From Defluviitaleaceae bacterium (GTDB taxonomy: Bacteria > Bacillota > Clostridia > Lachnospirales > WQUN01), in contig WQRX01000004.1 of NCBI GenBank assembly GCA_009786535.1, positions 1 through 64,000 of the forward strand: a stretch of DNA of 64,000 bases. The letters are read 5' to 3'. The notes below the pieces were generated by a model, which was given only the letters and a program-made list of their open reading frames with translations, searched no databases and was not told where the DNA came from. A program made the position numbers and the translations under genes. Numbering within the stretch: the first letter of the stretch is position 1; every line of letters starts with the position of its first letter. Below are positions 46,201-63,666 of the stretch, one piece after another.

Positions 46201-46380
46201 TGAATCAAATATATTGGGTTTCTGCATGGGCAAAATATAGTGCATTAAATGACATGGGCGAAGTCAAAATTTGGTCGTGTAGACAACAGAGAGCGAAATG
46301 AATCGGACTATGATGAACATCTATATATAACCGAAAGCATGGATTTTTCACTGCTTGGGCTTGATGGCATCACTGGGATT
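46201..46380 (+). pseudogene. Broken small gene at the island edge
   Basis: An ATG with AAGAAGG 7 nt upstream opens MNQIYWVSAWAKYSALND, which stops after 33 residues. A +1 frame then stays open across ESDYDEHLYITESMDFSLLG before running into the 3' end of the serine-recombinase gene. This looks like a frameshifted gene, cut by insertion of the recombinase element. I do not recognise the protein. Confidence 0.35.
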
Positions 46381-48081
46381 TTGGGGAGTGCAAATATTGA
46401 CCCAAGTCCATACCAAAAATCGGTTATGAACTGCGGTAAAAATCCGTAGCGCATAGCCGATTTTAAATACCATGTAGCCGTAAGTGCGCGTGAACGTTGC
46501 GCCTGTGTTTAAGCGAATTTCTAGGTTCAAAGTCATGTTGGTAGTGGTGTCGTTTGTTACATAAATTTTATCGATTAGGGTATTTATGATACCGGGGGTG
46601 AGTTCACCTGTGTTTGCATTGAAGTAACGACGCAGTTCTTTTTTGAAGTGGTGCAATTTTGTGCTGTAGCTTGATTGGTCTTTTTGTTGGATTTGTAATT
46701 TTTTTAATGTACGTTCCAGTGCGGTAATTTCATCGTTGGCGGCATTGTTGCGTTGTTCAAATTCGGCGTTGGATAAGCGGTCTTCCACCGCTAAGTCGAT
46801 GAGTTTATTTTTGCGCACGGTGATTTTGGCTAGGTCAGTTTTTAAAGTTTTAATTTGCGCGTCTGTTTGCGTATTATTGTTTGCACTTTCCAGGAGGGCA
46901 ATGTACTTCGCAACCAATGTATCAAAATTGCTGGATAGGTCAGCTAGGACTTCCAGCAGAATTTCGGTGAGTTCGCTTTCTTTTATTCCGAAGGTGGGGC
47001 AGCTTTCTTTTCCGTTTTTCATGCGGTGGCTGCATACCCATGTGGGGTTTGCTTCTTGGGCGCGGACGCGCCTTGCTTTCATGTAAAAAGGAACGCCATG
47101 TTCGGCGCAGATAATTTTACCCGTGAATAGGTTGTTTGTTTTGAATGAACTGCGGCGGCTTTTTACCTCGGTGCTTCTGGCCGTGAAAATAGCATTTGCC
47201 CGCTCCCACAATTCTTCGCTTACGATGGGGGGCACTTTGTCAGGGTCGGGGTAGAGTTCCCATTCCGATTCGTCTAGAAATTTTTGTTTTTTGGTAAACA
47301 TATCAATAACTTTTACTTTGTTGCCACAGTAATAACCTTTATATTTTGGGTTAGTGATAATTTTGCGTAGTACATTGCGGTTAATAATACCACCTTTGAA
47401 ATTACGATAGCCTTTTTCGCATAAGATATTTTCAATTTTGGGCGTGGAATAATCTCCTGTGGCGTAAAGTTCATACACCATGCGCACCATTTCTGCTTCG
47501 GATTCGTTGATGATTAGCTTGCCTGCGGATTTTTCATAACCGTATATACGCGAATTGCCCATCACCGTGCCTTTTTTTATGGCTTCGTTGTGGCCGAAGC
47601 GGATGTGGCTCGATAACCGGCGGCTTTCCTCTTGGGCAAGGCTGGACATAATGGCAAGGCGCATTTCGCTGTCATCGTCAATTGTGTTAATACTGTCTTG
47701 CTGAAACCAAACGGCTACGCCATGACTTAACAATTCCCGCGTGTATTGGATGCTGTCTAGCGTGTTTCTTGCAAAGCGGCTGATTTCTTTTGTTATAATG
47801 AAGTCAAATTTATCTGTTTTTGCGTCAGCAATCATGGTGTGGAAGTTTTCACGGTTTTTAGTGGTGATGCCGCTTAATCCCTCGTCAATATAGTTACCCA
47901 CTAACTGCCAGTTTTGGTTGGCGGTGATGAAATCTTCATAATAAGAACGCTGGTTACCCAATGAGTTGAGCTGTTCGTCTTTGTCGGTGGAAACACGGGC
48001 ATAATACACCACCCGCAACGGCATATCCGAGAGGGTTTTCCCTATGGTTTTCATTTGGTTACGGATTTGGTATATATCCAT
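46348..48081 (-). CDS. Large serine recombinase
   Basis: A 577-residue site-specific recombinase. Resolvase domain with the catalytic serine in YYARVSTDKDEQ (Ser31) and the arginines in ISRFARNTLD and QEESRRLSSH. Recombinase domain near residues 180-290, a zinc ribbon (CAEHG...CSHR...CPTFG), then a coiled coil and a C-terminal DNA-binding end. GAGGTGA precedes the ATG. Such enzymes insert and excise elements without long repeats. The 3' end runs into the disrupted gene, so the last residues may be encoded by flanking DNA. Confidence 0.93.
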   Translation of the reverse strand: MDIYQIRNQMKTIGKTLSDMPLRVVYYARVSTDKDEQLNSLGNQRSYYEDFITANQNWQLVGNYIDEGLSGITTKNRENFHTMIADAKTDKFDFIITKEISRFARNTLDSIQYTRELLSHGVAVWFQQDSINTIDDDSEMRLAIMSSLAQEESRRLSSHIRFGHNEAIKKGTVMGNSRIYGYEKSAGKLIINESEAEMVRMVYELYATGDYSTPKIENILCEKGYRNFKGGIINRNVLRKIITNPKYKGYYCGNKVKVIDMFTKKQKFLDESEWELYPDPDKVPPIVSEELWERANAIFTARSTEVKSRRSSFKTNNLFTGKIICAEHGVPFYMKARRVRAQEANPTWVCSHRMKNGKESCPTFGIKESELTEILLEVLADLSSNFDTLVAKYIALLESANNNTQTDAQIKTLKTDLAKITVRKNKLIDLAVEDRLSNAEFEQRNNAANDEITALERTLKKLQIQQKDQSSYSTKLHHFKKELRRYFNANTGELTPGIINTLIDKIYVTNDTTTNMTLNLEIRLNTGATFTRTYGYMVFKIGYALRIFTAVHNRFLVWTWVNICTPQNPSDAIKPKQ

Positions 48082-48145
48082 GTGTCACCTCGCAGAATCA
48101 TTAAATCCATTGTAGCGAAGTTGCGCAGAAGCGCAAGCGCGCGTG

Positions 48146-48292
48146 TTAGCTTGCCCATATTTGCCGTTCGAGTGTTTCTTTTGTTTCTTGGGTGATTAAC
48201 CCTTGTGAAAAGGCTATGTTATTAAGCCTTAGCAACTGCAATTTGTCGTATTGCGCACGGTCATTTTTTCCAGCATATGGTTGCTTTTCCAT
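48146..48292 (-). CDS. Small SHOCT-like protein upstream of the recombinase
   Basis: A 48-residue protein (starts MEKQPYAGKNDRAQYDKLQL, ends ERQIWAS). Short SHOCT-like proteins of this type (a helix ending in LITQETKETLERQI) often lie just upstream of serine recombinases. AGAGGTG precedes the ATG at 48292. Same strand as the recombinase, 64 bp upstream. Possibly a recombination directionality or accessory factor; that is inference. Confidence 0.6.
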   Translation of the reverse strand: MEKQPYAGKNDRAQYDKLQLLRLNNIAFSQGLITQETKETLERQIWAS

Positions 48293-48410
48293 TAAAACAC
48301 CTCTGCTGATACTCTTTACATTTGACTTTATTTTTATACCCGCGATGTTCTCCCTCCATTCAATTTTCGGGCATTGTGTGCGTGGTTTAATTATGATATT
48401 CTTTTATTAG

Positions 48411-48475
48411 CACGTTCACTTTGGCACACATTCGATGTGAACGTCTCGCAATGATGCACCACCACATTGAACGTG
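48411..48475. promoter_or_regulatory. Three-copy TGAACGT operator
   Basis: CACGTTCA (48411-48418, inverted), TGAACGT (48438-48444) and TGAACGTG (48468-48475) lie between the minus-strand small gene and the XRE gene. Outer copies face each other. Probable binding sites of the XRE regulator for divergent control of the recombinase side and itself. Confidence 0.5.
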
Positions 48476-48488
48476 TCAAGGAGAATAT

Positions 48489-48962
48489 ATGGCTATTTTT
48501 GCAAAACGATTAAAGGAGCAACGCAAGGCACAGGGCATAACCCAAAAAGCGGTCGCTACCCATCTTGGCATAACTGAACAAGCATACCAAAAATACGAAT
48601 ACGCCATGCGCGAACCCGACCACAAAACAACCATCCACCTCGCGGAGTTTTTTCAAACATCGGTAGATTATTTGTTGGGGCGTTCAAACAATTCGGCTAT
48701 GTTTAATTATGAAAAAATTACCCAAGTCTTGTCAGATGAGCGATTGAAAATAGAAACGAAGGGGTCATATGCGCTTCTGCTCCAGTGTATAATAGGAAAC
48801 CGTGCAATCATCTTTAATGAAAAATTATTTTTACAAACTCATAGCCTCGAAAAAAATGACTTCGAGCGTATGTTGCAAGACTTGGAAAATTTGCAATATA
48901 TCCATATAATAGACAATAGCAATGATGACATCACGAACGAGCGGCATTTTGTGTTGCTGTAA
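48489..48962 (+). CDS. XRE-family regulator
   Basis: A 157-residue regulator with an N-terminal HTH_3 domain (RLKEQRKAQGITQKAVATHL, EQAYQKYEYAMREPD, LAEFFQTSVDYLLG) and a helical C-terminal domain without a known signature. AAGGAG precedes the ATG. It likely controls the island via the TGAACGT repeats directly upstream. Confidence 0.88.
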   Translation: MAIFAKRLKEQRKAQGITQKAVATHLGITEQAYQKYEYAMREPDHKTTIHLAEFFQTSVDYLLGRSNNSAMFNYEKITQVLSDERLKIETKGSYALLLQCIIGNRAIIFNEKLFLQTHSLEKNDFERMLQDLENLQYIHIIDNSNDDITNERHFVLL

Positions 48963-49014
48963 TATACCCTTTGCAAGCAATGAATCATGGGCCCAAATTG
49001 CCCAAGATTCGCTT

Positions 49015-49032
49015 GTTGGGGTAACCCCCAAC
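49015..49032. repeat. Short hairpin before the dam-type gene
   Basis: GTTGGGG/CCCCAAC with a short loop. It lacks a T tract, so it is not a clear terminator, and it resembles the first hairpin of the block inside rsmF. Confidence 0.4.
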
Positions 49033-49084
49033 CCTCATAAAATTAAGCCGCTTCGCGTCTGCTGAAAAACGAAAGGAGCCACCC

Positions 49085-49990
49085 ATGTCTACCCTACATA
49101 TCCAAAACAACGCCAAGCCCTTCATAAAGTGGGCAGGGGGGAAGTCGCAAATATTGAACGACATCCGCGCCCAATACCCAAGGGAACTAGGGCGCGGAAT
49201 AAAAAAATACGCCGAGCCTTTTGTGGGTGGCGGCGCAGTATTGTTTGACATATTAAACCGTTTCGATATGGAAGAGGTATACATTAGCGATATTAACCGT
49301 GAGCTTATCCATTCCTACACTTCCATTAAAAATGATGTCGCTTCTTTAATAGCATCATTAAAGGCATTGGAAGAAACATACCTCCACGCTGATGACGCAC
49401 AACGGAAGGAAATTTATTATATAAACCGTGACCGATTTAATATGTTAAAGCAACACAATGATATTTCCGTAGAGTTAGCTTCATTATTTATTTTTTTAAA
49501 TCGTACATGTTTTAATGGACTATACCGCGTAAATAGTAAGGGTGGTTATAACGTCCCGCAAGGCAATTATAAAAATCCGTGTATTTGTGATGTGCAAAAT
49601 CTCCATGCCGTTTCGGACAAATTGCAAAGGGTAATTATCACCCACGCAGATTATCAACACTCCCGCAATTTTATTGACCGCGATACATTCTGCTACTTCG
49701 ACCCACCCTATCGACCGCTAACAGAAACTGCAAATTTTAACGCTTACGCACAAGATGGATTTGATGATAATGCACAGGCCAACCTCGCCCAATTCATTGA
49801 TGAAATGAGCGAGTGCGGGGCACATGTGGTTGCTAGCAATTCTGACCCTACCAATGTGGATTTGAACGATAATTTTTTTGACGCGCTGTATGCACGGCAC
49901 AGGATTTTCAGAATCGAAGCCAACCGCGCCATCAATTCCGTGGGAAGCGGGCGGGGCAAAATACGGGAATTGCTTATCGCCAACGGCTAG
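49085..49990 (+). CDS. DNA adenine methylase, Dam/DpnM type
   Basis: A 301-residue class alpha N6-adenine DNA methyltransferase, most like enzymes that modify GATC. Motif I is FIKWAGGKSQIL (about residue 14), motif IV DPPY is in FCYFDPPYRPL (about residue 200) and the late motif is VVASNSDPTNV. AAAGGAG precedes the ATG. It is 9 bp upstream of a MutH/Sau3AI-like nuclease gene, the layout of a restriction-modification pair. GATC specificity is inferred from the family. Confidence 0.9.
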   Translation: MSTLHIQNNAKPFIKWAGGKSQILNDIRAQYPRELGRGIKKYAEPFVGGGAVLFDILNRFDMEEVYISDINRELIHSYTSIKNDVASLIASLKALEETYLHADDAQRKEIYYINRDRFNMLKQHNDISVELASLFIFLNRTCFNGLYRVNSKGGYNVPQGNYKNPCICDVQNLHAVSDKLQRVIITHADYQHSRNFIDRDTFCYFDPPYRPLTETANFNAYAQDGFDDNAQANLAQFIDEMSECGAHVVASNSDPTNVDLNDNFFDALYARHRIFRIEANRAINSVGSGRGKIRELLIANG

Positions 49991-49999
49991 GAGGATATC

Positions 50000-50623
50000 A
50001 TGCATAGAGATGAAGCGGTGCGCAGATTACAAGCATTAGAAGGACGTAATTTACATGAACTAGCACAAGAATTCAACATAACCGTTATGTCGGCTAATAA
50101 CAAAGTGAATAAAGGTTGGGCAGGGCATGTATGTGAACGATACCTAGGCTTGCCGATAAACTCTGGGCAAAGCCCTAATTTTGGTTCGTGGGAATTGAAA
50201 AGCATTCCATTAAAACGTCTTCGCAACGGAACACTCGCATTCAAAGAAACGATGGCGATTACTATGATTGACCCGTATAACGTACAACGCACATCTTTTG
50301 AAGAAAGTCATTTATTGATGAAGCTGCGTAAAGCTGTAATTGTGGCACGGGTAGTAGGTGCAACTTATGGTAAACCTTCATTTGTACACACGGTAACGTC
50401 GTTTGATTTGGATGGCGAATTGTTGGAAGCCGTTCGTACTGATTATGAATTGGTGCAGGCTTGTTTGAATGACCCTGTCCGTGGGTTTTCTGCTCTAACG
50501 GGGCATATGGGGCATTATATTCAACCGCGCACTAAGGGTAAGGGGCATGGGAGTGTATCGCGGGCTTTTTACGCTCGCACTAGATTTTTGGCAGAATTTA
50601 TAGATTTGACTGAACCTACATGA
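50000..50623 (+). CDS. MutH/Sau3AI-family endonuclease-like protein
   Basis: A 207-residue protein of the MutH/Sau3AI fold, whose members cut at GATC. Visible marks: NKGWAGHVCERYLG (Glu46), the ExK motif in WELKSIP (Glu65, Lys67), and FEESHLLMKLRKAVIVARV. In MutH and Sau3AI a catalytic Asp precedes ExK in a PDF-like context. Here the aligned segment reads SPNFGSWELK, with Asn60. Cleavage activity is therefore uncertain. AGGAGG precedes the ATG. The pairing with the Dam-type gene supports a restriction role. Confidence 0.8.
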   Translation: MHRDEAVRRLQALEGRNLHELAQEFNITVMSANNKVNKGWAGHVCERYLGLPINSGQSPNFGSWELKSIPLKRLRNGTLAFKETMAITMIDPYNVQRTSFEESHLLMKLRKAVIVARVVGATYGKPSFVHTVTSFDLDGELLEAVRTDYELVQACLNDPVRGFSALTGHMGHYIQPRTKGKGHGSVSRAFYARTRFLAEFIDLTEPT

Positions 50624-50706
50624 ATGTTCTAATATGCATATATGCTTGCATGTTAAGCAATTATGAGCCTATTTTGGCTCGAAATAAATTATTTTTAACA
50701 AAACTA

Positions 50707-50735
50707 TTGACATAATTTCAAAAAACGCCTATTAT
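50707..50735 (+). promoter_or_regulatory. Promoter of the DUF5986-ImmA pair
   Basis: TTGACA, 17 bp, TATTAT: near-consensus, 28 bp before the chosen TTG start. Confidence 0.7.
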
Positions 50736-50763
50736 GAATGAAAAATAATCGGAGGTGCGTTTT

Positions 50764-51528
50764 TTGTTTAACTCAAGAGATATTCCTTATACGGATGAAA
50801 AAAAGGCGGCCATTATACGCTGTATTCAATACGGCGTAGGTGATGGTATTATCGAGGCAACAGCAGGTTATGTAACAGACAATGGGCGCATAGGAACAAT
50901 TTGGGATTTAATAAACAAAGAACTATTTAACAAGCTAATAATTTTAGATTGTATGGTTGGGAAAACAAAACGAGGTGCGAATTGGAAAATTATGAGCGTT
51001 TTTGACGTTAAATCTGGTTATATTTGTCATGTGGTTCGGGAAGAACGATTGAAAAGTTTATTTTCATCATGGAAACGCGGAAATGAAATATATCATTATT
51101 TACGGTGTTCGTCTTATATCTTTAATAATGGACAAAAACCTAAATTTGAACAGGGGACAATATTTGACAGTAATCCATCCGAGTTTGAAATAAATAACAT
51201 AACTAAAACAACAGACCAAATCATAAATGACTTGAAAATAAATGAAAGTGATGTAAAAGGTCATTTCATTGTTCCGTTTAAACACAAGGGAGGAATTTTC
51301 AAGGTTCGCGCTATAGGCCTTAATGAAAAAATGGAAATAATAGCTGATGAATGTTGGAATCATTTAATTAATGTGAATGATAGCATTTCTGTGGAGCTAG
51401 CATCAGATTATTCTGATGCGGCAAATAATCCAAGCCGTAATCTTGAATTAACTGATAAAGCACTAAGGAGAACGAAGAGAGATTTAATAACAGATACACC
51501 TACAGAAGAAAAAAATAATATTTCATAG
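50764..51528 (+). CDS. DUF5986-like protein
   Basis: A 254-residue protein, apparently of the DUF5986 family: IEATAGYVTDNGRIGTIWDL, a KRGANWKIMSVFD segment and REERLKSLFSSW are its marks. The function is unknown. Members often sit beside XRE-ImmA/IrrE genes in mobile or defence contexts, as here. GGAGGT lies 6 nt before the TTG at 50764. A GTG nine bases earlier overlaps the ribosome site. Confidence 0.65.
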   Translation: MFNSRDIPYTDEKKAAIIRCIQYGVGDGIIEATAGYVTDNGRIGTIWDLINKELFNKLIILDCMVGKTKRGANWKIMSVFDVKSGYICHVVREERLKSLFSSWKRGNEIYHYLRCSSYIFNNGQKPKFEQGTIFDSNPSEFEINNITKTTDQIINDLKINESDVKGHFIVPFKHKGGIFKVRAIGLNEKMEIIADECWNHLINVNDSISVELASDYSDAANNPSRNLELTDKALRRTKRDLITDTPTEEKNNIS

Positions 51529-51555
51529 TAATAAACATGAAAGGAAAATCTTTTT

Positions 51556-52764
51556 ATGTATTTAAGAACATCTAACGGAAGAAGGCTTGAAAAATCATTT
51601 AACGGAAGCCGACTTGAACTAGCTCGAATATATAACGGTTATACGATAAAAGACTTGTCCGAAAAAGTTGGGCATCCTCGACAGACTCTTTCCGCATATG
51701 AAAATGGAAAAGAAGCAAACCCTAGTCCTTTTATTATACAAAAAATTTCAGAAGTGCTAGGGTTTCCAATTACATTTTTTTACGAAAAAACCACACCTGT
51801 AAAAGTGGGTTCAACTTATTTTAGAGCATTAAGAACAACAAGCAAAAAGTATCGAGACCAACAAAGACAAAAAATGTCAATTTTATCTAGTATTTATACA
51901 TTCATAAGTGAATATATTCGATTTCCTGTTTTTGACCCATTGGCATTAAAAAATATTTCATCGGACGATCCAGAACATGCCGCCGATTCGCTTCGGCAAC
52001 ATTGGCAATTGGGAATAAAACCGATTGAAAATATTATTTTTACTGTTGAAGAAAATGGAATCCCGATAACCAGCTATGAGACATCTACTGATGCAATTGA
52101 TGCCTTTAGTCAAATGATAGATATAGAAAATCGAAACATATATTTAATTGGATATTCAAGTAATAAAACTTCTGCCGCTAGAATCCACTTTGATATTGCC
52201 CATGAGCTAGGACATATTATTATGCACGAATGGAGCGAGGATGTAGAAGCCCTTACGAAAGACGAATTTAAAGAAAGAGAAAACGAAGCGCACGCTTTTG
52301 CATCAGCTTTTTTGATGCCCAAAGACAGTTTTCTTTATGACATTAAGAATTGCCATCTCAACATCCCTATGTACATTCAGTTAAAGAAAAAATGGAAAGT
52401 TTCAATAGCTGCAATGGCAAGGAGAGCATATACACTCGGAGTTACCACATATGACGATTATCAAAACATGATGCGTTTATTACAACGTCGCGGCATCAGA
52501 AAAGACGAGCCATTAGATGACGTGTTGGTTACATCTAAACCCACATTATTAAAAATGGCTATTCAAATGCTTTTAGACGAACGTATTTTTACCCCAAAAG
52601 AATTTATTAATGAACTAGCATATAATAATAACATGAGTTTAAATAGTCAAATTATTGAGGAACTTTTAGGCCTTCCTCAAAATACGCTAGTAGATGTAGC
52701 TCCTACCCACAAACTTTCGGTGAAAAACAAACCGTCACTTGGTATAGCGAATTTAAAAATTTAA
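51556..52764 (+). CDS. XRE-HTH / ImmA-IrrE metallopeptidase fusion
   Basis: A 402-residue protein. The N-terminal HTH_3 domain spans about residues 18-75 (ELARIYNGYTIKDLSEKVG, TLSAYENGKEA). A peptidase domain has the zinc motif HELGH at 216-220 (FDIAHELGHIIMHEW) and a downstream ENEAHAFASAFLMP with the third ligand Glu. A helical tail follows. ImmA-type proteins cleave repressors to switch on mobile elements, or act in toxin-antitoxin pairs. The target may be the XRE regulator at 48489 or the DUF5986 partner. Confidence 0.88.
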   Translation: MYLRTSNGRRLEKSFNGSRLELARIYNGYTIKDLSEKVGHPRQTLSAYENGKEANPSPFIIQKISEVLGFPITFFYEKTTPVKVGSTYFRALRTTSKKYRDQQRQKMSILSSIYTFISEYIRFPVFDPLALKNISSDDPEHAADSLRQHWQLGIKPIENIIFTVEENGIPITSYETSTDAIDAFSQMIDIENRNIYLIGYSSNKTSAARIHFDIAHELGHIIMHEWSEDVEALTKDEFKERENEAHAFASAFLMPKDSFLYDIKNCHLNIPMYIQLKKKWKVSIAAMARRAYTLGVTTYDDYQNMMRLLQRRGIRKDEPLDDVLVTSKPTLLKMAIQMLLDERIFTPKEFINELAYNNNMSLNSQIIEELLGLPQNTLVDVAPTHKLSVKNKPSLGIANLKI

Positions 52765-54108: not shown

Positions 54109-54227
54109 GTAAATGCACTCCTTCGAATTTTTGATTATCTGCGACGTGATTATACATTATTTGCACCTATCCTGCCGATAAAATATAATGAAGCAACTTC
54201 ACCCATTTTGGCACAAGGAAATTGCGC

Positions 54228-55430
54228 ATGATGTTACCCGTTATCACCCGTATTCTACACGAATTTGGGGACGATGTATTCAAAAATATGCAGCGCACCA
54301 ATGCGATGCTAATGGATTTAGCCCCGACGCAAATCCGTGAGCGTATTTTGGTGCGCAATTTTATTGAAGCCGACGGGTACGAAGCATTAACGCGGGGCGA
54401 TGCCTTCCCGCTGGCAGAGCAACGCCTGCTGCAGCATTTAATCGAAGTTTTTTCCTTGGAAAAAAGCGCCGCCCTGTGGGTAATTCGCCTTTTTGGTGCC
54501 GCCCTGGGGCAAATTTCCGAAAATGAATGGACCGGGGACTCCGCTGCGGGCATTGCCGCATATTCCTTGCCGTATTTGCATGGGCAGGTGGCGCTGGGTA
54601 AAACCCACGTTGCTGCCGTTTCTACCGATGGTACGGTATTGGCGGGCGGGGCAGACGATGCCTATCAATGCAATGTTGCCTCGTGGCGCGATGTAGTCGC
54701 CGTTGCCGCAGGTGACGAGCATACGCTTGGGTTAAAAAGTGACGGCACGGTGCTTGCTGCGGGGTCAAACGCCTTCGACCAATGTGACGTGCTTCATATG
54801 AAAGATGTGGTGGGCGTGTATGCCTTTGGGCATGACAGCGTTTTCGTTTTCGCCAACGGAAAGGCGGCGGCAGCGGGGCGCAGTAAATGGGATTTGTCGT
54901 CCTTTGAAAATGTTGTCAGCATTGCCCATTACCCGGAAGGGGTGATAGGCATACGCGAGGACGGTACGCTTGCCCTCGCCTCCCGCGCGGTGGACGATGA
55001 TTTACTGCGCGAGCAGGAATGGCTTTTGGCGCAAACGGACGTGCGGCAAGTAATTTCCACCTATATAAATGGGAGCATTCTGCTTAAAAAAGACGGGCGG
55101 CTTTACAAAAGCGGCGAGCCTGATAATTATTTTGCCCAATGGCGCGATATTGTAAGCATTGCCAACGTAACCGACGGTTTTGCCGTTTTGCTGGAAGACG
55201 GCACGGTGCGCATTTTAGCCTACGACCGTGCTAAGCCTCGTATCTCTACTTATGCCGACCGTTGGGCAAACGTAAAAGCCATTTACGGCGGGTATCGCCG
55301 TATTATTGGGCTAACCCACGACGCACGCCTGCTTGCGGCGTGTACAAATCTAGGCTGGCTGTGGCACAATACCGCTATGAGTATTGACTATGTGACAGAC
55401 TGGTACCCTGTGAGTGCATATTATGGATAA
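54228..55430 (+). CDS. RCC1-like propeller protein with N-terminal helical domain (A)
   Basis: A 400-residue protein. Residues 1-95 form a helical domain (ITRILHEFGDDVFKN, LMDLAPTQIRERI, LLQHLIEVF) shared with the next gene. The rest is about seven RCC1-type repeats, for example VAAVSTDGTVLAGG followed by WRDVVAVAAGDEHTLGLKSD, enough for one beta-propeller. Some repeats are degenerate. RCC1-type propellers bind proteins or nucleotides. There is no signal peptide, so it is cytoplasmic. AAGGAA lies 9 nt before the ATG at 54228. Its place beside a TerY-P triad suggests a partner or substrate of the kinase. Confidence 0.8.
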   Translation: MMLPVITRILHEFGDDVFKNMQRTNAMLMDLAPTQIRERILVRNFIEADGYEALTRGDAFPLAEQRLLQHLIEVFSLEKSAALWVIRLFGAALGQISENEWTGDSAAGIAAYSLPYLHGQVALGKTHVAAVSTDGTVLAGGADDAYQCNVASWRDVVAVAAGDEHTLGLKSDGTVLAAGSNAFDQCDVLHMKDVVGVYAFGHDSVFVFANGKAAAAGRSKWDLSSFENVVSIAHYPEGVIGIREDGTLALASRAVDDDLLREQEWLLAQTDVRQVISTYINGSILLKKDGRLYKSGEPDNYFAQWRDIVSIANVTDGFAVLLEDGTVRILAYDRAKPRISTYADRWANVKAIYGGYRRIIGLTHDARLLAACTNLGWLWHNTAMSIDYVTDWYPVSAYYG

Positions 55431-56823
55431 TCGGATTTTAGACGCGCTTAAAGCCATACGCGATACCTATGGCGACGCGGTCTTTTACAACGTGACCACT
55501 ACGCGAAACCTGCTCGCCGACCTTGCCCCCGATTTACGCAAGGAACGTATTCAAATCACCCATTTCTTAGACATGGGGGGGTACTTTCCGTTAAAATATG
55601 CGGAAAAGGAATACGATGTAGTGCGCTCGCGCCTTGTGGAACAATTGATGGCAACCTATTCCACCATGCGCCCCATCGCGGATTGGGTGCTGGATATTTT
55701 TAGCAAGTTCCTAGGCTATAATTTGGACGAGGAAAAAGGCGCGTACAAGCCACCCGACAAGCCAACGGGCAAGCCCCTTATCGGCGACCGTATCGACCGG
55801 AAAGATAAGCCTGCGGTAATTAAAAACAGCGGGCGCATTGAGCGGTCCGTGGAAAAAAAGCCCATCACAAGCGCACTATATCCCGCACCGCCCTTGCAGC
55901 CTACGCAGCGCACCGAAGAAAAGCCAAGCAAATCCATACACGAATACAACTTTCCCACGCTGCACCTGCCCGAAAGCGCCGCAAAAAAAGACCCCACCCT
56001 ACGCATTGCGGCGGATTATCACAGCGTGGCAATTACCCGCGACGGTTTTGTAAAGGCGGTGGGCTTAAATTCCGACGGGCAGTGCAACACGATAACTTAT
56101 GACTGGCGCGATATGGCGGCGGTAAGCGCGGGGGGCTACTATACCGTGGGCTTACGTGCCGACGGCACCGTTACGAGCGCGGGGCGAAACGACTTTGGGC
56201 AGCGCGATTTCCTAGGCTGGCGCGAAGTTGTAGGCATTTCTGCAGGTGCGCGCCATACCGTGGGTTTGCGGGCAGACGGTACGCTGCTTTCCACAGGGCA
56301 AAACAAACACGGCGAATGTGATGTACGGCATTGGCGCAATATCGTTAAAGTAATTGCGGGCAACGCCTGCACCTTCGGTATAAAAAAGGACGGGCGTGTG
56401 CTGGTGAGCGGGCGCAACATTAAAGGCGACCTGCAGGCGTCCCACCTTAACGGCGTGGTAGACATTGCTTACGGCGGACCCGGGCGCGTAATTGCATTGC
56501 TCTCCGACGGGCGCATTGCCCGCGTAGGGCAGGAAAACCACATGCGCCGCAGCTTTACGCTGTACAAGGACGTAAAGCAAATCGTAGCCGCGCCCGACTA
56601 TTTTGCGGGTTTAATGGAGGACGGCACAGTAAAACTGCTCGCTTATTTTTGGACAGATTGCGGCACAGAAGCCGCCGTCACCGACTGGACAGGCATACGC
56701 GCCATCGCCGCGGGGCGTTATCATATTTTAGGCTGGCAAAACGACCGCTTAATAGGGGCGATGCTGCACCCCGATATTGGGAAGGATAAGGGACAGTTAA
56801 GTGTGACACGATGGGAGATGTAA
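55423..56823 (+). CDS. RCC1-like propeller protein with N-terminal helical domain (B)
   Basis: A 466-residue paralogue of the preceding protein, overlapping it by 8 bp. The N-terminal helical domain (residues 1-100: LLADLAPDLRKERIQITHFL) is followed by a 90-residue Pro/Lys-rich, low-complexity linker that is absent from copy A, then about six to seven RCC1 repeats of clearer form (VSAGGYYTVGLRADGTVTS, SAGARHTVGLRADGTLLSTG). The linker is rich in Ser/Thr/Lys and could be a phosphorylation target, which is speculation. Start ATG at 55423. Confidence 0.8.
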   Translation: MDNRILDALKAIRDTYGDAVFYNVTTTRNLLADLAPDLRKERIQITHFLDMGGYFPLKYAEKEYDVVRSRLVEQLMATYSTMRPIADWVLDIFSKFLGYNLDEEKGAYKPPDKPTGKPLIGDRIDRKDKPAVIKNSGRIERSVEKKPITSALYPAPPLQPTQRTEEKPSKSIHEYNFPTLHLPESAAKKDPTLRIAADYHSVAITRDGFVKAVGLNSDGQCNTITYDWRDMAAVSAGGYYTVGLRADGTVTSAGRNDFGQRDFLGWREVVGISAGARHTVGLRADGTLLSTGQNKHGECDVRHWRNIVKVIAGNACTFGIKKDGRVLVSGRNIKGDLQASHLNGVVDIAYGGPGRVIALLSDGRIARVGQENHMRRSFTLYKDVKQIVAAPDYFAGLMEDGTVKLLAYFWTDCGTEAAVTDWTGIRAIAAGRYHILGWQNDRLIGAMLHPDIGKDKGQLSVTRWEM

Positions 56824-56866
56824 GGTTAAAAGATTAAAAACAAGGCCGTGGACTCCATCCTAGCGA

Positions 56867-56956
56867 CAATTTTGCTTCGCAAAATTGCGCTTACCTGCCC
56901 GCTTTTTTGGAAAAAAGCGGGGCAAAAAACTGATGCGTAATTGCTTCGCAATTACG
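56867..56956. repeat. Cluster of three palindromes
   Basis: CAATTTTGC-TTC-GCAAAATTG (56867-56887), CCCGCTTTTTT-GG-AAAAAAGCGGG (56898-56921) and CGTAATTGC-TTC-GCAATTACG (56936-56956). The first and third match the type at 7394. The middle one is the core of the 34-base inverted repeat. Confidence 0.8.
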
Positions 56957-56976
56957 TGAGTACATGAGGTGACAGT

Positions 56977-57228
56977 ATGATGGCGATTTATGTGATTGTT
57001 GGAATTATTACGTTGTTTATTTTGGTTCAGTTTTTTATGGCTATTTACAACTCGAAAACGATTTGGGCTTGCCCAATGTGCGGAACGTCAATTACGAAAA
57101 CATGGCGGGAATTGTTTTTCAAGGTGCTTGCGGGAACAAATCATATACGTGTTGTCAAATTAACTTGCCATAAATGCAAACAAACAAGCCATTGCAAGCC
57201 TTCAATAAAAAATGACGGATATTGTTGA
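56977..57228 (+). CDS. Small zinc-ribbon membrane protein
   Basis: An 83-residue protein: one N-terminal membrane segment (YVIVGIITLFILVQFFMAIY), then CPMC and CHKC pairs that can form one zinc ribbon. Function unknown. GAGGTGA precedes the ATG. It lies within the inverted-repeat cassette. Confidence 0.65.
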   Translation: MMAIYVIVGIITLFILVQFFMAIYNSKTIWACPMCGTSITKTWRELFFKVLAGTNHIRVVKLTCHKCKQTSHCKPSIKNDGYC

Positions 57229-57263
57229 ATCTAATTAATATTATATTTGGACGGTGTGATATA

Positions 57264-57782
57264 TTGAAAATTCAAAAGAAACTGGAACTGCTAGATATAT
57301 ACGATAAATTCGGCAATAAAACAGGTAAAACAATAAAGCGAGGCGAACCCATGGCGCAGGGTGAATACTTTCTAATTGTAGACGTGTGGATAAAAAATGC
57401 TAAACACGAATTTTTAATTTCCAAACGAACCCCAACAACACAACCAGAGCCAAACAAATGGCAGCCCACAACAGGATGTGCCGTAGCCGGCGAAGATAGT
57501 CTTTCAGCGGCACTACGCGAAACAAAAGAAGAACTGGGCATTACATTAAACAACGATGGGAAACAAGTCATTCGATTTTTAGCATGGGATAAAGCAATTA
57601 TAGATGTATGGTTTTTCCAACAAGAGGTTAATACAAATGATATTATTCTACAACCACAAGAAACAGACGATGCAATGTTTGCAACAAGTACCGCCATAAA
57701 AGCGTTAGCCGAAAACGAGCAATTTCTCAGCTACGGCAGAGTACCATACATTGATGAACTACTTAAAATATGCGCAGCATAA
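57264..57782 (+). CDS. NUDIX hydrolase, IPP-isomerase/YfcD-like
   Basis: A 172-residue NUDIX protein. The N-terminus LELLDIYDKFGNKTGKTIKR is typical of the YfcD/Idi-like group. The Nudix box reads GCAVAGEDSLSAALRETKEE followed by LGI; its catalytic glutamates are present. The best start is a TTG at 57264 (GGTG 8 nt upstream). It lies in the inverted-repeat cassette, between RCC1 protein B and the kinase. Substrate unknown. Confidence 0.82.
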   Translation: MKIQKKLELLDIYDKFGNKTGKTIKRGEPMAQGEYFLIVDVWIKNAKHEFLISKRTPTTQPEPNKWQPTTGCAVAGEDSLSAALRETKEELGITLNNDGKQVIRFLAWDKAIIDVWFFQQEVNTNDIILQPQETDDAMFATSTAIKALAENEQFLSYGRVPYIDELLKICAA

Positions 57783-57800
57783 ATATACCCAAAAATAAAG

Positions 57801-57856
57801 TTTTTTGCCCCGCTTTTTTTCAAAAAAGCGGGCGGGGTGGGACAGACAGCGTCCCA
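57801..57856. repeat. Right inverted repeat of the cassette with second hairpin
   Basis: CCCGCTTTTTT/AAAAAAGCGGG (57810-57833) inside the 34-base unit, then GGGAC/GTCCC (57840-57856). The same 34-base unit occurs inverted at 56897-56930. Confidence 0.8.
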
Positions 57857-57896
57857 TGGTTTTAATCTTTAATCTTTCAAAGAAGGAGCAACCCCC

Positions 57897-59186
57897 ATGT
57901 TATACGCACTCAAAGACGGCACAAAACTCCTCTCCAAGCACCGCATGACCTACACCGTAAAGCGCTTCATCGCATCGGGTGGGCAAGGCGAAGTGTACGA
58001 AGTGGATGACAAAAAAGGGCAAGCCTACGCCCTCAAATGGTACTACCCCCACGCGGCAACGCCCTACCAGCAAAAGCTTATCGAGCGGCTTATTGAACGC
58101 GGCGCACCCGACCCATGCTTCCTGTGGCCGCTGGATATTATCGCAAGCCCGCAAAAGGGCGAAAAAGCCTTTGGCTACGTAATGCGCCTGCGAACCCCCA
58201 CGTACAAGAGCATCGTGGACCTGATGAAGCGCCGCGCCGAGCCGACTTTTAGCGCCCTGTGTATGGCGGCAATTAATTTGGCGGACGGTTATCAGAGCTT
58301 GCATTCCCAAGGGCTGTGTTATCGGGATATTTCTTTCGGCAACCTGTTTTTTAACCCCGCCGACGGGGAAGTGCTTATCTGCGACAACGACAATGTAACG
58401 GTGAACCAAGACACGGAAAGCGGCACCTACGGCACGCCACGCTTTATGGCGCCGGAGATTATTACCCTCAATAAATCGCCCTCTACAGAAACGGATTTGT
58501 ATTCCATGGCGGTGTTGCTTTTTTATATGTTTGTGCTGCACCATCCGCTGGAAGGCGCGATTGAAGCCAATATTAAATGCTTCGACGCAAAAGCCATGGA
58601 AAAAATCTACGGCCACGACCCCATCTTCATCTACGACCCCAAAAACGATAAAAACCGTCCCATCCCGGGCTACCAAGACAATGCCATAATTTTCTGGCAT
58701 ATGTACCCGCCATACCTGCGGGAAATGTTTACCCGTGCTTTTACCGATGGCTTGCGCAACGGCAACGCGCGCATTGTGGAAAAGGAATGGAAGGACGCCT
58801 TTGTGCGCTTGCGCAACAGCATCTTATACTGCCACGGCTGTGGGGCAGAGAATTTCTTTAACAAGAAGCCCACCTGTTGGAAATGCCGTGCAAATATCAC
58901 GCCGCCTCCGCGCCTAAATTTAGGGCGGCAGTTACTCATGCTTAACCATAACAGCGCGGTTTTTGCGCATCATTTGCATGAGAATTTCGACTTCTCCACC
59001 CGCGTTGGCAAAGTGTCCCAACACCCGCAAGACCCAAAACGCTGGGGCTTAACCAACGAAAGTAAAGATAGCTGGACATATACAAAAACCAGCGGCGATA
59101 CCGCCATCATTGAGCCGGGCAAAACCGCACCGCTTGCAACGGGGGCGAAGATTAATTTTGGTCCAATCGAAGGGACAATCGAATGA
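57897..59186 (+). CDS. Ser/Thr kinase-like protein with zinc ribbon (TerY-P triad kinase)
   Basis: A 429-residue protein kinase. Gly loop SGGQGEVY (28-34), Lys47 in YALKWY, catalytic loop YRDISFGNLFF (Asp144, Asn149) with YRD for HRD, metal loop CDNDN (163-165) where DFG is usual, and APE at 185-187. A zinc ribbon (C312, C315, C327, C330) follows, then a beta-rich tail (GKVSQHPQDPKRWGLTN, KINFG) that looks like a diverged FHA domain. AAGGAG precedes the ATG. With the vWA and PP2C genes downstream it makes the TerY-P triad. It overlaps the MazG-GNAT gene by ATGA. Confidence 0.88.
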   Translation: MLYALKDGTKLLSKHRMTYTVKRFIASGGQGEVYEVDDKKGQAYALKWYYPHAATPYQQKLIERLIERGAPDPCFLWPLDIIASPQKGEKAFGYVMRLRTPTYKSIVDLMKRRAEPTFSALCMAAINLADGYQSLHSQGLCYRDISFGNLFFNPADGEVLICDNDNVTVNQDTESGTYGTPRFMAPEIITLNKSPSTETDLYSMAVLLFYMFVLHHPLEGAIEANIKCFDAKAMEKIYGHDPIFIYDPKNDKNRPIPGYQDNAIIFWHMYPPYLREMFTRAFTDGLRNGNARIVEKEWKDAFVRLRNSILYCHGCGAENFFNKKPTCWKCRANITPPPRLNLGRQLLMLNHNSAVFAHHLHENFDFSTRVGKVSQHPQDPKRWGLTNESKDSWTYTKTSGDTAIIEPGKTAPLATGAKINFGPIEGTIE

Positions 59187-59974
59187 CAACCGTACAAAAA
59201 CGGGTAGGGGAATTTGTGCAACGCCATAATTTGCAAGCCCCTGCGGATATCCGCTTTATAGACCTCGTTTCCGAAATTGGCGAGCTGGGCAAGGAACTGC
59301 TAAAGGGGAGCAATTACGGCACGTATAATTTTTCCCCAACGGCAAACACGCAAAATGAGCTGGGCGATGTGGTATTTTCTTTGTGCTGCTTGGCGAATAT
59401 TTTGGACGTGGACATAGACGCGGCGCTTCAAAGTGCGCTTGATAAATATGAAGCGCGGTTTGAAAAAACGGGCGGGGTAGGAAGCGGGGATGTACCGCGT
59501 ACCGCAACTTCTTACCGAATAACAGAAGTTACCGACCCGCAGGAAAAATCCCGCATTTGCGAAGCAATTTTGTTAGCATTGCCTAACTGGTTCGGCATTC
59601 CCGAATCCACGGCGGAGTACATTGCGGGGGTGGCGGATAAGCCCTTCTATGCGGCATTTGAGGGCAGTCATGCCATTGGTTTTGTGTCTCTTCTCCCGCA
59701 TAACGCCCACACGACAGAAATTTACGTAATGGGTTTATTGGAAACCCACCACCGCAAGGGCATAGGGCGGCGGCTGGTGCAGGCGGGCGAAAGTTTTTGT
59801 CGCGAAACAATGCGGACGTTCTTTACCGTAAAAACCCTGGCCGATACCCACCCCGACGAATATTATGCAAAAACGCGGCAATTCTACACCGCCATGGGTT
59901 TTAAACCGTTAGAAGTTTTCACCGAATTATGGGGCGAAAGCAACCCCTGCTTGTTTATGGGTAAAGGCGTATAA
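59183..59974 (+). CDS. MazG-like pyrophosphohydrolase / GNAT fusion
   Basis: A 263-residue two-domain protein. Residues 1-100 are a MazG-type nucleotide pyrophosphohydrolase: LVSEIGELGKELLKG and NELGDVVFSLCCLANIL give the ExxE...ExxD metal motif. Residues 110-263 are a GNAT acetyltransferase with LLETHHRKGIGRRLVQAGE and FYTAMGFKPLEVFTE. The fusion suggests acetylation and nucleotide hydrolysis acting on one pathway. It is translationally coupled to the kinase. The substrate is unknown. Confidence 0.85.
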   Translation: MTTVQKRVGEFVQRHNLQAPADIRFIDLVSEIGELGKELLKGSNYGTYNFSPTANTQNELGDVVFSLCCLANILDVDIDAALQSALDKYEARFEKTGGVGSGDVPRTATSYRITEVTDPQEKSRICEAILLALPNWFGIPESTAEYIAGVADKPFYAAFEGSHAIGFVSLLPHNAHTTEIYVMGLLETHHRKGIGRRLVQAGESFCRETMRTFFTVKTLADTHPDEYYAKTRQFYTAMGFKPLEVFTELWGESNPCLFMGKGV

Positions 59975-59990
59975 TGAAAGGAGTGCAACC

Positions 59991-61832
59991 ATGAAAGTTT
60001 GTGTTACGTGCATAATTTTCGCTTTGCTGCTCGCCTTCACCGCTTGCGGGCGGGGCGAAAATGACGCGCCCGAGCGCCCAACGCCTATTATGCCGCAATC
60101 GCCTGCAAACGAAGGCGCTTCTGTATCGCCAATTCCCCCGCAGGGGGGCGAAGCGGTGGGAACGTACCCGCCTGCGCCAATGTTGCGCATTGCCGATATT
60201 CGCCCCAATACGGCGGGTATTCCCATACGGTGGGGCTTTAACACAACGATGTTTGATAGCCTTTTTCAAATGGAAAATGCATTTCGCGTAAACCGGCGCG
60301 GGTTTGAAGAATTAGCCATACAGGCATTTCTTAGCCGATATTTTAACGTGCAACTGGAAGGTGTGCTGGTTACAGATGAAATGCTGCATGAGGGGGACGT
60401 TCCCGACATATTTCTTGCGCCGCCTGCAAATGCTTTTTATGCAGGCATTGCGCGCGCCATTCCCGAGGAAATGATACGCCGTTACGCGCCCAACTACGCT
60501 GCGTTATTAGATGTGCATAATGGTTGGAATGTAAGCCGTGCCGCAGACGGGCAGCAAACGGCGCTTAATACATTCGACATACATTACCGCGACTTACCCA
60601 TCTTTTCGGTTTATCGGTTGGAATGGCTGGAAGAATTGGACATTGGCTTACCCTTTGGGGGTGATATTGTGCAGGTGGCTGATGGGGTGTATTTTTCCGC
60701 CGCGTCCTTTACGTATCACGATTTTTTGTGGATTATGGATGCCTTTTCGCGCCCGCTGCCTAACCCGTATCGCCACCCCGCGGGTACATGGTCGGAAAAT
60801 ATATTAGACCGTGCGCGGAACAATACCCTAAGCATGGAAATAAATTTGCTGGGCGATATTCACAGCGCCATTGCCCCCATTATGGGCATGTTTGGTGTAA
60901 ATAAAAGTATTATGGAAGAAGACGGACGGGCAATACCCTTCTTTGCAAGTACGGCGTACCGTGATGCCCTGATATTTTTAGAAAGTCTTATCGCGCGGGA
61001 TGCCGTTTTTATATACGGCGGTGGTACGCAGCATTCGACATTTGTTTGCCAATTTTTCCGCATTGGCTGGGCGGCGGTACGCACGCAAGATTTATACAAT
61101 GTCATTCACACGGCACGGAATAACGACCCATCGCGCCGTTTTCTCATTACCCCACCCGAAGATGGGGGCACAGGCTTTCGCGGTGTTGGGTTGGCGCAAA
61201 GTGCCGGTATGTTTAACCCGCAGGGGCTTTCGTGGGCGGTTTCCAATCATGTAAGCGACGATACCCTGGCGCGCATTTTAAATATTTTTGATACAATCTC
61301 GTTTGACCGCGAGTGGTTTACCCTTACAAATTTCGGGTTTTCCATTGATTCGCCCCATTACGACCCGCAGTTAAGTGCGTTTAACATGATTGGAAGCGTA
61401 GAAGGCAAGGCGCGTCTCGTTTGGGAGGGTACGCCTTATGATTCGACCGTAACCTTCCTGCGCGAACCTACTGTAGTAATACAGGAGGGCTTGTTTTCCA
61501 CAGGCATTTTTGACGGAAATACATGGGAACGGCGATTTTTCGCAGGGTTTGATGCGGTAAATAACTTTGCGCACAGCAGTGCGGGGCAGCAATTACATTT
61601 ATTGCCCGCACGGCAAGATACAGTGGGCGAGTTTACCGCACAACGCGCGTATTTGGATAATCGTTATGCACACACATTGCTGGGATTTAACGGCATTGTC
61701 AATCAATTTTTGCTTCGTGTTTTGCACAGGCAAATAGATGTGACAAGCGGTTGGGATAGTTACATTGCAACACTTAATCAACATGGGTTGCAAGAATATA
61801 TTAATTTGTTTTCACAATTTCCAATAAGATAA
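59991..61832 (+). CDS. LipO/YtcQ-like solute-binding lipoprotein
   Basis: A 613-residue exported lipoprotein: signal peptide with lipobox FTAC (Cys at about 19), Pro-rich linker, then a large type of extracellular solute-binding domain. The C-terminal GWDSYIATLNQHGLQEYINL is typical of LipO/YtcQ-like proteins. No ABC permease is nearby. Inside a kinase/phosphatase cluster it may act as an outside sensor, which is inference. GAAAGGAG precedes the ATG. Confidence 0.78.
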   Translation: MKVCVTCIIFALLLAFTACGRGENDAPERPTPIMPQSPANEGASVSPIPPQGGEAVGTYPPAPMLRIADIRPNTAGIPIRWGFNTTMFDSLFQMENAFRVNRRGFEELAIQAFLSRYFNVQLEGVLVTDEMLHEGDVPDIFLAPPANAFYAGIARAIPEEMIRRYAPNYAALLDVHNGWNVSRAADGQQTALNTFDIHYRDLPIFSVYRLEWLEELDIGLPFGGDIVQVADGVYFSAASFTYHDFLWIMDAFSRPLPNPYRHPAGTWSENILDRARNNTLSMEINLLGDIHSAIAPIMGMFGVNKSIMEEDGRAIPFFASTAYRDALIFLESLIARDAVFIYGGGTQHSTFVCQFFRIGWAAVRTQDLYNVIHTARNNDPSRRFLITPPEDGGTGFRGVGLAQSAGMFNPQGLSWAVSNHVSDDTLARILNIFDTISFDREWFTLTNFGFSIDSPHYDPQLSAFNMIGSVEGKARLVWEGTPYDSTVTFLREPTVVIQEGLFSTGIFDGNTWERRFFAGFDAVNNFAHSSAGQQLHLLPARQDTVGEFTAQRAYLDNRYAHTLLGFNGIVNQFLLRVLHRQIDVTSGWDSYIATLNQHGLQEYINLFSQFPIR

Positions 61833-61857
61833 ATCTATCCACGAAGGAGAATGAGCA

Positions 61858-62532
61858 ATGAGCGAAAGAAATTTACCCGGGGGCGAAATGTCCTCACGCA
61901 AGCTGGACTTTTTTTGGATAGCCGACTGCTCGGGCAGTATGGACGGCGAAAAAATCCAAACCCTCAACTACGCCATACGCCAAACAATCCCCGACATGCG
62001 CAAAGAGGCGGACGCGAACCCCAACGCCGACATTTTGGTGCGGGCGGTCAAGTTTTCCGACGGGGCGGCATGGCACGTAGCGGGGGCAACACCCATCGAC
62101 CAGTTTAACTGGACGGATTTATCCGCGGGTGGCGTAACCGCAATGGGCATGGCGCTGGAATTGGTGGCGGGGGAATTGCGCCAGCTCCCCGGCGACACAA
62201 AACGCCTGCCACCCGTGCTGGTACTGCTTACCGACGGGCAGCCCACCGATGATTTTAAGGGCGGCTTAGATGCACTCCTCGCAACGCCGTGGGGCAAAAA
62301 AGCGGTGCGCATTGCCATCGCCATTGGGAAGGATACGGACACCAACGTGCTTGAGCAGTTCACAGGCAACAAAGAGCTTGTGCTTGAGGCGAAAAATCCG
62401 CAATTGCTGGTTAAATTCATCAAGTGGGCATCTACCGTGGTGAAAAATGTTTCCGCACCCATGGCGGGGGCAGACGCAGTAGACACGGCTGCAATCCCCG
62501 TAGTCACCGCTGACGACGATGAAATCTGGTAA
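61858..62532 (+). CDS. TerY-like vWA-domain protein
   Basis: A 224-residue von Willebrand A protein. The MIDAS is complete: DCSGS at 23-27, the Thr in GGVTAMG, and Asp in LLTDGQPTDD. It is of the TerY type, with a C-terminal acidic tail (TADDDEIW). GGAG lies before the ATG. It overlaps the PP2C gene by 14 bp. Predicted to scaffold or sense divalent metal within the TerY-P triad. Confidence 0.9.
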   Translation: MSERNLPGGEMSSRKLDFFWIADCSGSMDGEKIQTLNYAIRQTIPDMRKEADANPNADILVRAVKFSDGAAWHVAGATPIDQFNWTDLSAGGVTAMGMALELVAGELRQLPGDTKRLPPVLVLLTDGQPTDDFKGGLDALLATPWGKKAVRIAIAIGKDTDTNVLEQFTGNKELVLEAKNPQLLVKFIKWASTVVKNVSAPMAGADAVDTAAIPVVTADDDEIW

Positions 62533-63343
62533 TATCGGTTGGGCAACGGCGGGCGCGGTGGTACAGGGCGCTACGCATATTCGGCAGGACAAAATTTGCC
62601 AAGACGCGTTGCTGCTGTGCGAAAATGGGAACGCATCTGATGGACAGGTTTTTTCCATCGCTTGCGTAGCCGATGGGCATGGCAGCGACCGTTGCCCCTT
62701 TAGCGACCAAGGCGCAAAAGCGGCGGTGCTGGTGGCTACGGATATTCTCAAAGACCTGCTTATGAATCCCGACCCCAAGGAGATGCTCGCCGCGCAAAAG
62801 GATATTCGCCTGCCCCGCCAAATTGAAGCCCGTTGGAAAGAAACGGTGCATAAAATGTACTTGGAGCAGGAAGTCGAAACGCCGGACGACATGCCCCCGT
62901 TTTCCTACGAACTTTATGGCTCTACGTTGCTTGCCCTTGCGGCGGCGTCCGGGTTTATATTTGCGTTGCAAATTGGCGACGGCGACATTGTAGCCATCGA
63001 GCCTGATGGTTTGGCGCGCTGGCTGCTGCCCCCTTGTGACCATGCAGGCAACGAAACTGAGTCCCTGTGTATGGACGAATGTTGGAAATATATCCGCACC
63101 CAGCTCATTCCCATTGACGGGGAAAGCCCCGTGCCCCTCATGTTTTTACTCTCTACCGACGGCTACGCAAATTCCTTTGTAGAAAGCGCGGGCTTCCTTA
63201 AAGTGGGCGCGGACATTTACCGTATGTGGCGCGAGCATGGGCGCGACTATGTGCAGGAAAACCTGCCCGCTTGGCTAAGCCAAACCACTACCGACGGTAG
63301 CGGGGACGATATCGCCGTGGCGATTTTAGCGAAGGAAGGGTAG
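62519..63343 (+). CDS. PP2C-family Ser/Thr phosphatase
   Basis: A 274-residue PP2C phosphatase. QGATHIRQDKICQDA (first metal-binding Asp), VADGHGSDRCP (DGHG at 52-55), LQIGDGDIVAIEPDG, LSTDGYANSF and GDDIAVAIL make the metal centre. It starts inside the vWA gene. It probably reverses phosphorylation by the triad kinase. This is the third component of the TerY-P triad. Confidence 0.9.
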   Translation: MKSGNIGWATAGAVVQGATHIRQDKICQDALLLCENGNASDGQVFSIACVADGHGSDRCPFSDQGAKAAVLVATDILKDLLMNPDPKEMLAAQKDIRLPRQIEARWKETVHKMYLEQEVETPDDMPPFSYELYGSTLLALAAASGFIFALQIGDGDIVAIEPDGLARWLLPPCDHAGNETESLCMDECWKYIRTQLIPIDGESPVPLMFLLSTDGYANSFVESAGFLKVGADIYRMWREHGRDYVQENLPAWLSQTTTDGSGDDIAVAILAKEG

Positions 63344-63345
63344 CC

Positions 63346-63666
63346 GTGATAAAAATAGAGGACATTATTACGCTATGTAGTAAAAAATTTTTACGTTGGA
63401 CAAACCACGTTCTTATCCGTTTAATTCAACGCGAAATAACCACAGACGATGTCGAAAATGCTTTGTTAAACGGCGAAATAATTGAACAATACCCCAATGA
63501 TAAACCGCACCCCAGTTGCTTGGTACTAGGAACAGCCTTAACTAATCGACAAATTCATGTGGTGTGCGGGTTGGGGGAGAATGAACTATGGTTAATTACG
63601 GCATATTACCCCAGCCCCGATGAATGGACGGCGGACTTTAAAACAAGAAGGCGGTGCGAACAATGA
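63346..63666 (+). CDS. DUF4258-type toxin-like protein
   Basis: A 106-residue protein with the DUF4258 signature: TNHVLIRLIQREITTDDVENAL, then EIIEQYPNDKPHPSCLVLG and a final LWLITAYYPS. DUF4258 proteins are BECR-fold toxin-like and are often followed by a YgiT-type zinc-finger antitoxin, as here. GTG start at 63346, 2 bp after the PP2C stop. Toxicity is inferred. Confidence 0.82.
   Translation: MIKIEDIITLCSKKFLRWTNHVLIRLIQREITTDDVENALLNGEIIEQYPNDKPHPSCLVLGTALTNRQIHVVCGLGENELWLITAYYPSPDEWTADFKTRRRCEQ

Follow-up and report, generated by a model that had tools for sequence, protein, structure and literature searches.

Paired RCC1 propeller proteins sharing a helical domain as a possible fourth component of a TerY-P switch

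The window analysed here, the first 64 kb (64,000 nucleotides) of contig 4 in a Defluviitaleaceae genome of 3.4 Mb, contains a locus which probably encodes a TerY-P switch extended by a fourth component that has had no name until now: two RCC1 propeller proteins that would dock on the kinase–vWA–phosphatase core via a helical adaptor domain common to both. We regard it as an evenly balanced question whether a widespread and undescribed adaptor domain makes the TerY-P triad a modular platform in general, with the paired RCC1 propellers being this lineage's version of it.

A TerY-P locus containing two RCC1 genes

Nine genes lie on a single strand (+) at positions 54228-63343, and a DUF4258 gene then adjoins the last of them. 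All of the genes named in the original prediction were found where it had placed them, on the same strand; it had overlooked the small CxxC protein, the NUDIX gene, the DUF4258 gene and the FHA domain at the end of the kinase. RCC1a and RCC1b share 8 bases where the one gene ends and the other begins. A promoter scan returned fewer hits than were obtained in shuffled sequences, and the -35/-10-like pair at 54160-54189 is no evidence for a promoter.

Genes of the locus, with window coordinates, strand and the principal evidence for each assignment.
54228..55430 (+): RCC1a, N-terminal helical adaptor domain (about 54225-54509) followed by a seven-repeat RCC1 propeller (RCC1_2, E 2e-13)
55423..56823 (+): RCC1b, N-terminal helical adaptor domain (55423-55716) followed by a seven-repeat RCC1 propeller (E 1e-28)
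56977..57228 (+): small CxxC zinc-ribbon-like protein, between RCC1b and the kinase and missing at relatives' loci; bystander
57222..57782 (+): NUDIX hydrolase (E 4e-11), missing at relatives' loci; bystander
57897..59186 (+): Ser/Thr kinase, zinc ribbon, FHA (Pkinase, E 2e-17)
59183..59974 (+): MazG-GNAT fusion, found in this genome only among 61 searched; bystander
59991..61832 (+): putative lipoprotein, no Pfam family, with a lipobox-like FTAC seen by eye near the N-terminus
61858..62532 (+): TerY-like vWA protein (Pfam VWA, E 4e-8)
62519..63343 (+): PP2C phosphatase (PP2C_2, E 7e-35)
63346-63666: DUF4258 protein, directly after PP2C

The region upstream (46348-52764) encodes a serine recombinase, an XRE regulator, a D12-class adenine methylase, a MutH/MvaI-like nuclease, a DUF5986 protein and an XRE-ImmA peptidase, and looks like a mobile restriction-modification island adjoining the locus. 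Further along the same contig, at about 70689-71579 (L009 8689-9579), there is an abortive-infection gene of the Abi_2 family.

The kinase, vWA protein and phosphatase

All three members of the triad are present, namely a TerY-like vWA protein, a PP2C phosphatase and a kinase with a C-terminal zinc ribbon. Their genes span 5.5 kb here, with two probable passengers in between, and are directly adjacent to one another in many relatives. The catalytic residues of the kinase (Lys47, Asp144, Asn149 and Asp163) and the four zinc-ribbon cysteines are kept in 80-82 of 82 relatives, while the MIDAS motif of the vWA protein is complete (D23, S25, S27, T94 and D126) and is kept in at least 95% of 68 relatives; the PADLOC TerY model matches this protein weakly (E 0.012). 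The metal-binding aspartates of PP2C (D29, D52, D214 and D263/D264) are also conserved and, judged by these residues, the triad looks catalytically complete. Members of the genus share 96-97% identity in the vWA protein but only 57-70% in the product of the overlapping PP2C gene, a striking contrast in rate within one triad.

The C-terminus of the kinase is modelled by AlphaFold (pLDDT 93.4) with an FHA fold. The top row of a VIA structure comparison is the FHA domain of DgcB (Z 8.5, rmsd 2.2 over 82 residues), and FHA domains occupy every leading row with no OB-fold among them, a result which does not in itself prove that an OB-fold is absent. The canonical phosphothreonine-binding residues are not evident in our reading of an alignment of relatives. 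TerC and TerD are both missing from the whole genome, and with them the pair that characterises the ter tellurite-resistance cluster; their absence from the locus, as originally claimed, thus extends genome-wide.

A Chloroflexota triad locus (L150 11014-13545) includes a second kinase, in which a canonical kinase is linked with a copy of the triad kinase that has degenerated (motifs YALSPRN and AYHDN) but keeps the zinc ribbon and an FHA-like end. The degenerate part is probably a pseudokinase.

The RCC1 pair is inherited together with the triad

RCC1a and RCC1b both open with a helical domain of ~95 residues, followed by seven repeats of 35-44 residues with DGT-type motifs at positions 136, 174, 212, 247, 291, 326 and 367 in RCC1a and at positions 210, 250, 288, 326, 365, 403 and 443 in RCC1b. 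Comparison of RCC1b with the PDB returned only generic RCC1 propellers (BLIP-II and UVR8). Contigs 6, 11 and 13 of the same genome encode further RCC1-repeat proteins, one of which, on contig 11, is an open frame of 2096 residues; a search of this genome for the N-terminal domain found the two window genes and no others.

To follow these genes in relatives, 61 genomes (this one and 60 others) were searched for the kinase, the vWA protein, the MazG-GNAT fusion, the lipoprotein and the RCC1 N-terminal domain, and the surroundings of the matches were mapped. The order RCC1a-RCC1b-kinase is kept in a second genus and in all three other members of the genus that have the kinase; at one such locus (L040) the gap between RCC1b and the kinase is about 20 bases. 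Another genus member, G002, is missing the whole set. At locus L043, DUF2161 and NYN-domain genes precede the RCC1 genes in place of the restriction-modification island, and genes of similar size and order are seen at L040-L042 and L046.

Among 37 genomes of the family, 18 have both the kinase and the RCC1 pair, one has the kinase only, two have RCC1 only and 16 have neither (p 2e-7, a value which overstates independence because the genomes are related). The RCC1 pair is therefore present in 18 of the 19 family genomes with a kinase orthologue, unlinked cases included. The single kinase-only genome (G005) has the kinase and vWA-PP2C with no RCC1 pair detected, and both RCC1-only genomes are fragmentary. 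In genus g2 the set is often split over contigs (the RCC1 pair, the kinase and vWA-PP2C), yet it is all-or-none in each genome. Throughout the family, orthologues of these five genes are passed on as a set, including where they lie on separate contigs, which argues against simple hitch-hiking of the RCC1 pair. The proposal that the RCC1 genes are partners of the triad is in this way supported by the neighbourhoods of relatives, where they lie directly upstream of the kinase. The close relatives are Defluviitaleaceae metagenome-assembled genomes, and the isolate codes of several of them suggest termite-gut samples.

The remaining genes of the locus are probably passengers

The conserved order RCC1a-RCC1b-kinase indicates that the small zinc-ribbon/NUDIX and MazG-GNAT/lipoprotein pairs are insertions between old neighbours. 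The MazG-GNAT fusion, which had been cast as a nucleotide-processing effector of the system, is unique to this genome: it occurs at no relative's locus, and the MazG or GNAT proteins of relatives are the products of single-domain genes elsewhere (61 genomes). Its proposed partnership is refuted, and the effector role is left unsupported. The lipoprotein, previously suggested to be an outer sensor, occupies the same slot at one of the three other loci of the genus (G001) and has two off-locus copies in G004; beyond these two genomes it is absent or very weakly matched. A relative of it at locus L042 likewise has no Pfam family. Such sporadic occurrence within the genus, with essentially nothing beyond, largely refutes its partnership and lends no support to the sensor role. 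The MazG-GNAT, NUDIX and small zinc-ribbon proteins are thus passengers, as probably is the lipoprotein.

The N-terminal domain recurs beside triads across bacteria

AlphaFold confidently predicts the shared domain of RCC1b to be all-helical, with seven helices (pLDDT 97.5). A profile built from the window's family detected 57 domain-bearing open reading frames in 80 named loci, collected by kinase alone, and none in reversed sequences. These loci come from Lachnospiraceae, Chloroflexota, Nitrospina, Gammaproteobacteria, cyanobacteria, Actinomycetes, a methanogen and others. None of the 57 sequences matched Pfam or NCBIfam and one had a marginal PADLOC match. A Foldseek search gave no usable match (best E 2.9), which does not prove a new fold, and there was no clear solved relative by VIA (best Z 4.4, to 3fbz, followed by SRP54M-like rows), nor by comparison of the sequence profile with the PDB (best E 0.04, the level of chance). 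The domain thus belongs to no family in the libraries searched. None of the papers searched joins RCC1 with TerY, and an earlier mention of the domain in print, in older work on Ter systems, is possible.

Iterating the profile yielded 60 copies of the domain, distributed over 50 of the 80 kinase loci. These copies cluster tightly around the triad, with 54 of the 60 lying no more than 1.5 kb from a triad gene compared with 319 of 975 non-triad genes (hypergeometric p 2e-21). No domain was detected nearby at the other 30 loci, which are mainly from Streptomyces together with some relatives that have the domain on other contigs, and the domain is therefore not obligatory. Beside other triads, it is found in genes other than RCC1, including those for Sel1, DUF6273, vWA and membrane proteins. 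The modules fused to it include RCC1, LRR, WD40, TPR, Sel1, right-handed beta-helix and lectin-like modules, as well as FGE-sulfatase, Lcl_C, phosphonate-binding, PEGA, RDD and helicase parts. In one copy (L063 1752-2816) the partner module is a second vWA domain of the TerY-like type; neither the kinase nor the PP2C encoded in the window has the adaptor domain. Several adaptor-domain genes are found within one locus at L062 4204-6060, L063 679-4032 and L190 5009-15005.

Co-occurrence of the domain and the kinase was also assessed in 392 genomes of the order, where 32 have both, three have the domain only, 12 have the kinase only and 345 have neither. Viewed from the domain first, the kinase is present in 32 of 35 domain genomes, and the three exceptions are 78-83% complete. 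Outside the window's family the corresponding numbers are 13 with both, one with the domain only, six with the kinase only and 334 with neither. Three of the 12 kinase-only genomes (G009, G024 and G051) have the domain according to a narrower profile. A sparse class-wide sample of 147 genomes contained neither domain nor kinase beyond the window's own genome. Weak matches were also seen within the window's family in proteins of ~300 residues far from triads (L117, L121, L122, L128, L129, L131 and L134); these are found with the narrow profile only and are mostly lost with the broad one.

A plasmid search using the domain of a Marithrix protein returned a single record, the unannotated Methylomonas plasmid CP157007.1. 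There, kinase, vWA and PP2C genes are followed by five consecutive domain genes (L221 15054-22480), whose modules are Sel1, an unknown module, Tim44-like, ClpN and one other. That a search with the domain alone should return the triad is non-circular support for their association.

Proposed mechanism and alternatives

In the mechanism that we propose, the kinase and PP2C would set the phosphorylation state of partner proteins, with the vWA protein, whose metal site is intact, serving as an assembly or peptide-binding hub. Both RCC1 proteins would dock on this core through the ~95-residue adaptor domain, each offering its propeller as a recognition (or substrate) module that can be exchanged for others, and in other bacteria the same adaptor would bring LRR, WD40, TPR, beta-helix and lectin-like modules, among others, to this type of core. 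Something that binds the propellers would then alter phosphorylation or assembly via the core. Docking, recognition by the propellers and this direction of signalling are what we infer from the arrangement: with many modules, one core and one shared helical domain, an adaptor is the simplest reading, and the evidence favours the propellers being adaptor-borne recognition or target modules.

It is possible, and we suggest it only tentatively, that the locus is an anti-phage system in which the TerY-P core and its recognition modules sense infection, as in conflict systems based on effector-associated domains (EADs), a function compatible with the adaptor mechanism. Modules resembling TerY-P whose kinase carries an OB-fold are reported to act against phage on their own, and CoCoNuT restriction loci have TerY-P built into them (PMC11090510); comparable kinase-PP2C-vWA sets accompany conflict systems (PMC7159879). 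The surroundings point the same way, with a recombinase, D12-class methylase, MutH-like nuclease and ImmA upstream (46-53 kb) and the Abi_2 gene about 7 kb downstream of PP2C. However, the locus has no effector, and the RCC1 pair persists across species as a stable trait, unlike a fast-turnover defence cassette. A defence role is plausible.

Rather unlikely, in our estimation, is that the domain proteins serve the triad as substrates of phosphorylation or as effectors of its output instead of as sensors, with the kinase phosphorylating the adaptor or its module, PP2C resetting it and the C-terminal modules responding. Some modules are indeed enzymatic or membrane-associated (DEAD and UvrD-like helicase parts, RDD, ClpN), and the presence of multiple domain genes for a single kinase fits an arrangement of one kinase with many substrates. 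Most modules, though, are non-catalytic repeats or lectin-like and better suited to recognition than to execution, and a toxic domain is missing from the locus.

It is very improbable that the RCC1 pair came to lie beside the triad by chance or through a mobile element: several relatives do have the pair on other contigs, but the co-occurrence survives this separation, and proteins in which the same N-terminal domain is joined to other modules recur next to triads. Least credible of all is the full scheme first envisaged, in which a lipoprotein sensor, the switch, propeller targets and a MazG-GNAT effector form one system, as the tight same-strand spacing with start-stop overlaps might suggest, since no relative's locus has MazG-GNAT and the lipoprotein is missing beyond two relatives.

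The adaptor mechanism matters in that TerY-P triads are common, and the domain would provide a handle on what the switch reads by marking which neighbouring genes belong to it, where its input or substrate lies and which interaction is important. The variety of modules on a single core resembles the design of immune receptors.

Comparison with known systems

The TerY-P triad of Anantharaman et al. (2012), as outlined in PMC11090510, consists of neighbouring genes for a TerY-like vWA protein, a PP2C and a kinase with a C-terminal zinc ribbon. The same three are neighbours here, but in a genome devoid of TerC and TerD, with a kinase that ends in an FHA domain and with two adaptor-domain RCC1 proteins preceding it. 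The TerY-P-like anti-phage modules of Gao et al. (2020), as cited in PMC11090510, also combine kinase, PP2C and vWA; their kinase is fused to an OB-fold, whereas ours is fused to FHA, and defence is only a putative function in our case. CoCoNuT systems of Types II and III-A contain TerY-P (PMC11090510), whereas no McrB/McrC, helicase or nuclease was found among the genes examined next to our locus.

A parallel in organisation exists with EAD systems, in which a small helical domain is common to several proteins bearing varied repeats or lectin-like modules, alongside a regulatory core that contains vWA (PMC7159879 and PMC8195603). A shared small alpha-helical domain fused to varied modules is likewise found here. 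Comparison of 57 domain sequences with Pfam and NCBIfam, and of the predicted fold with solved structures, gave no match to a described EAD or Death-like domain. For homotypic docking, in which a core or effector protein would bear the domain as well, the vWA-fused copy at L063 is a candidate. The differences are that the domain here has no Pfam match, that the locus has no effector domain and that the core is kinase-PP2C-vWA as opposed to MoxR-vWA or a GTPase. By analogy, then, the putative adaptor principle mirrors that of the EAD systems, built around a different core.
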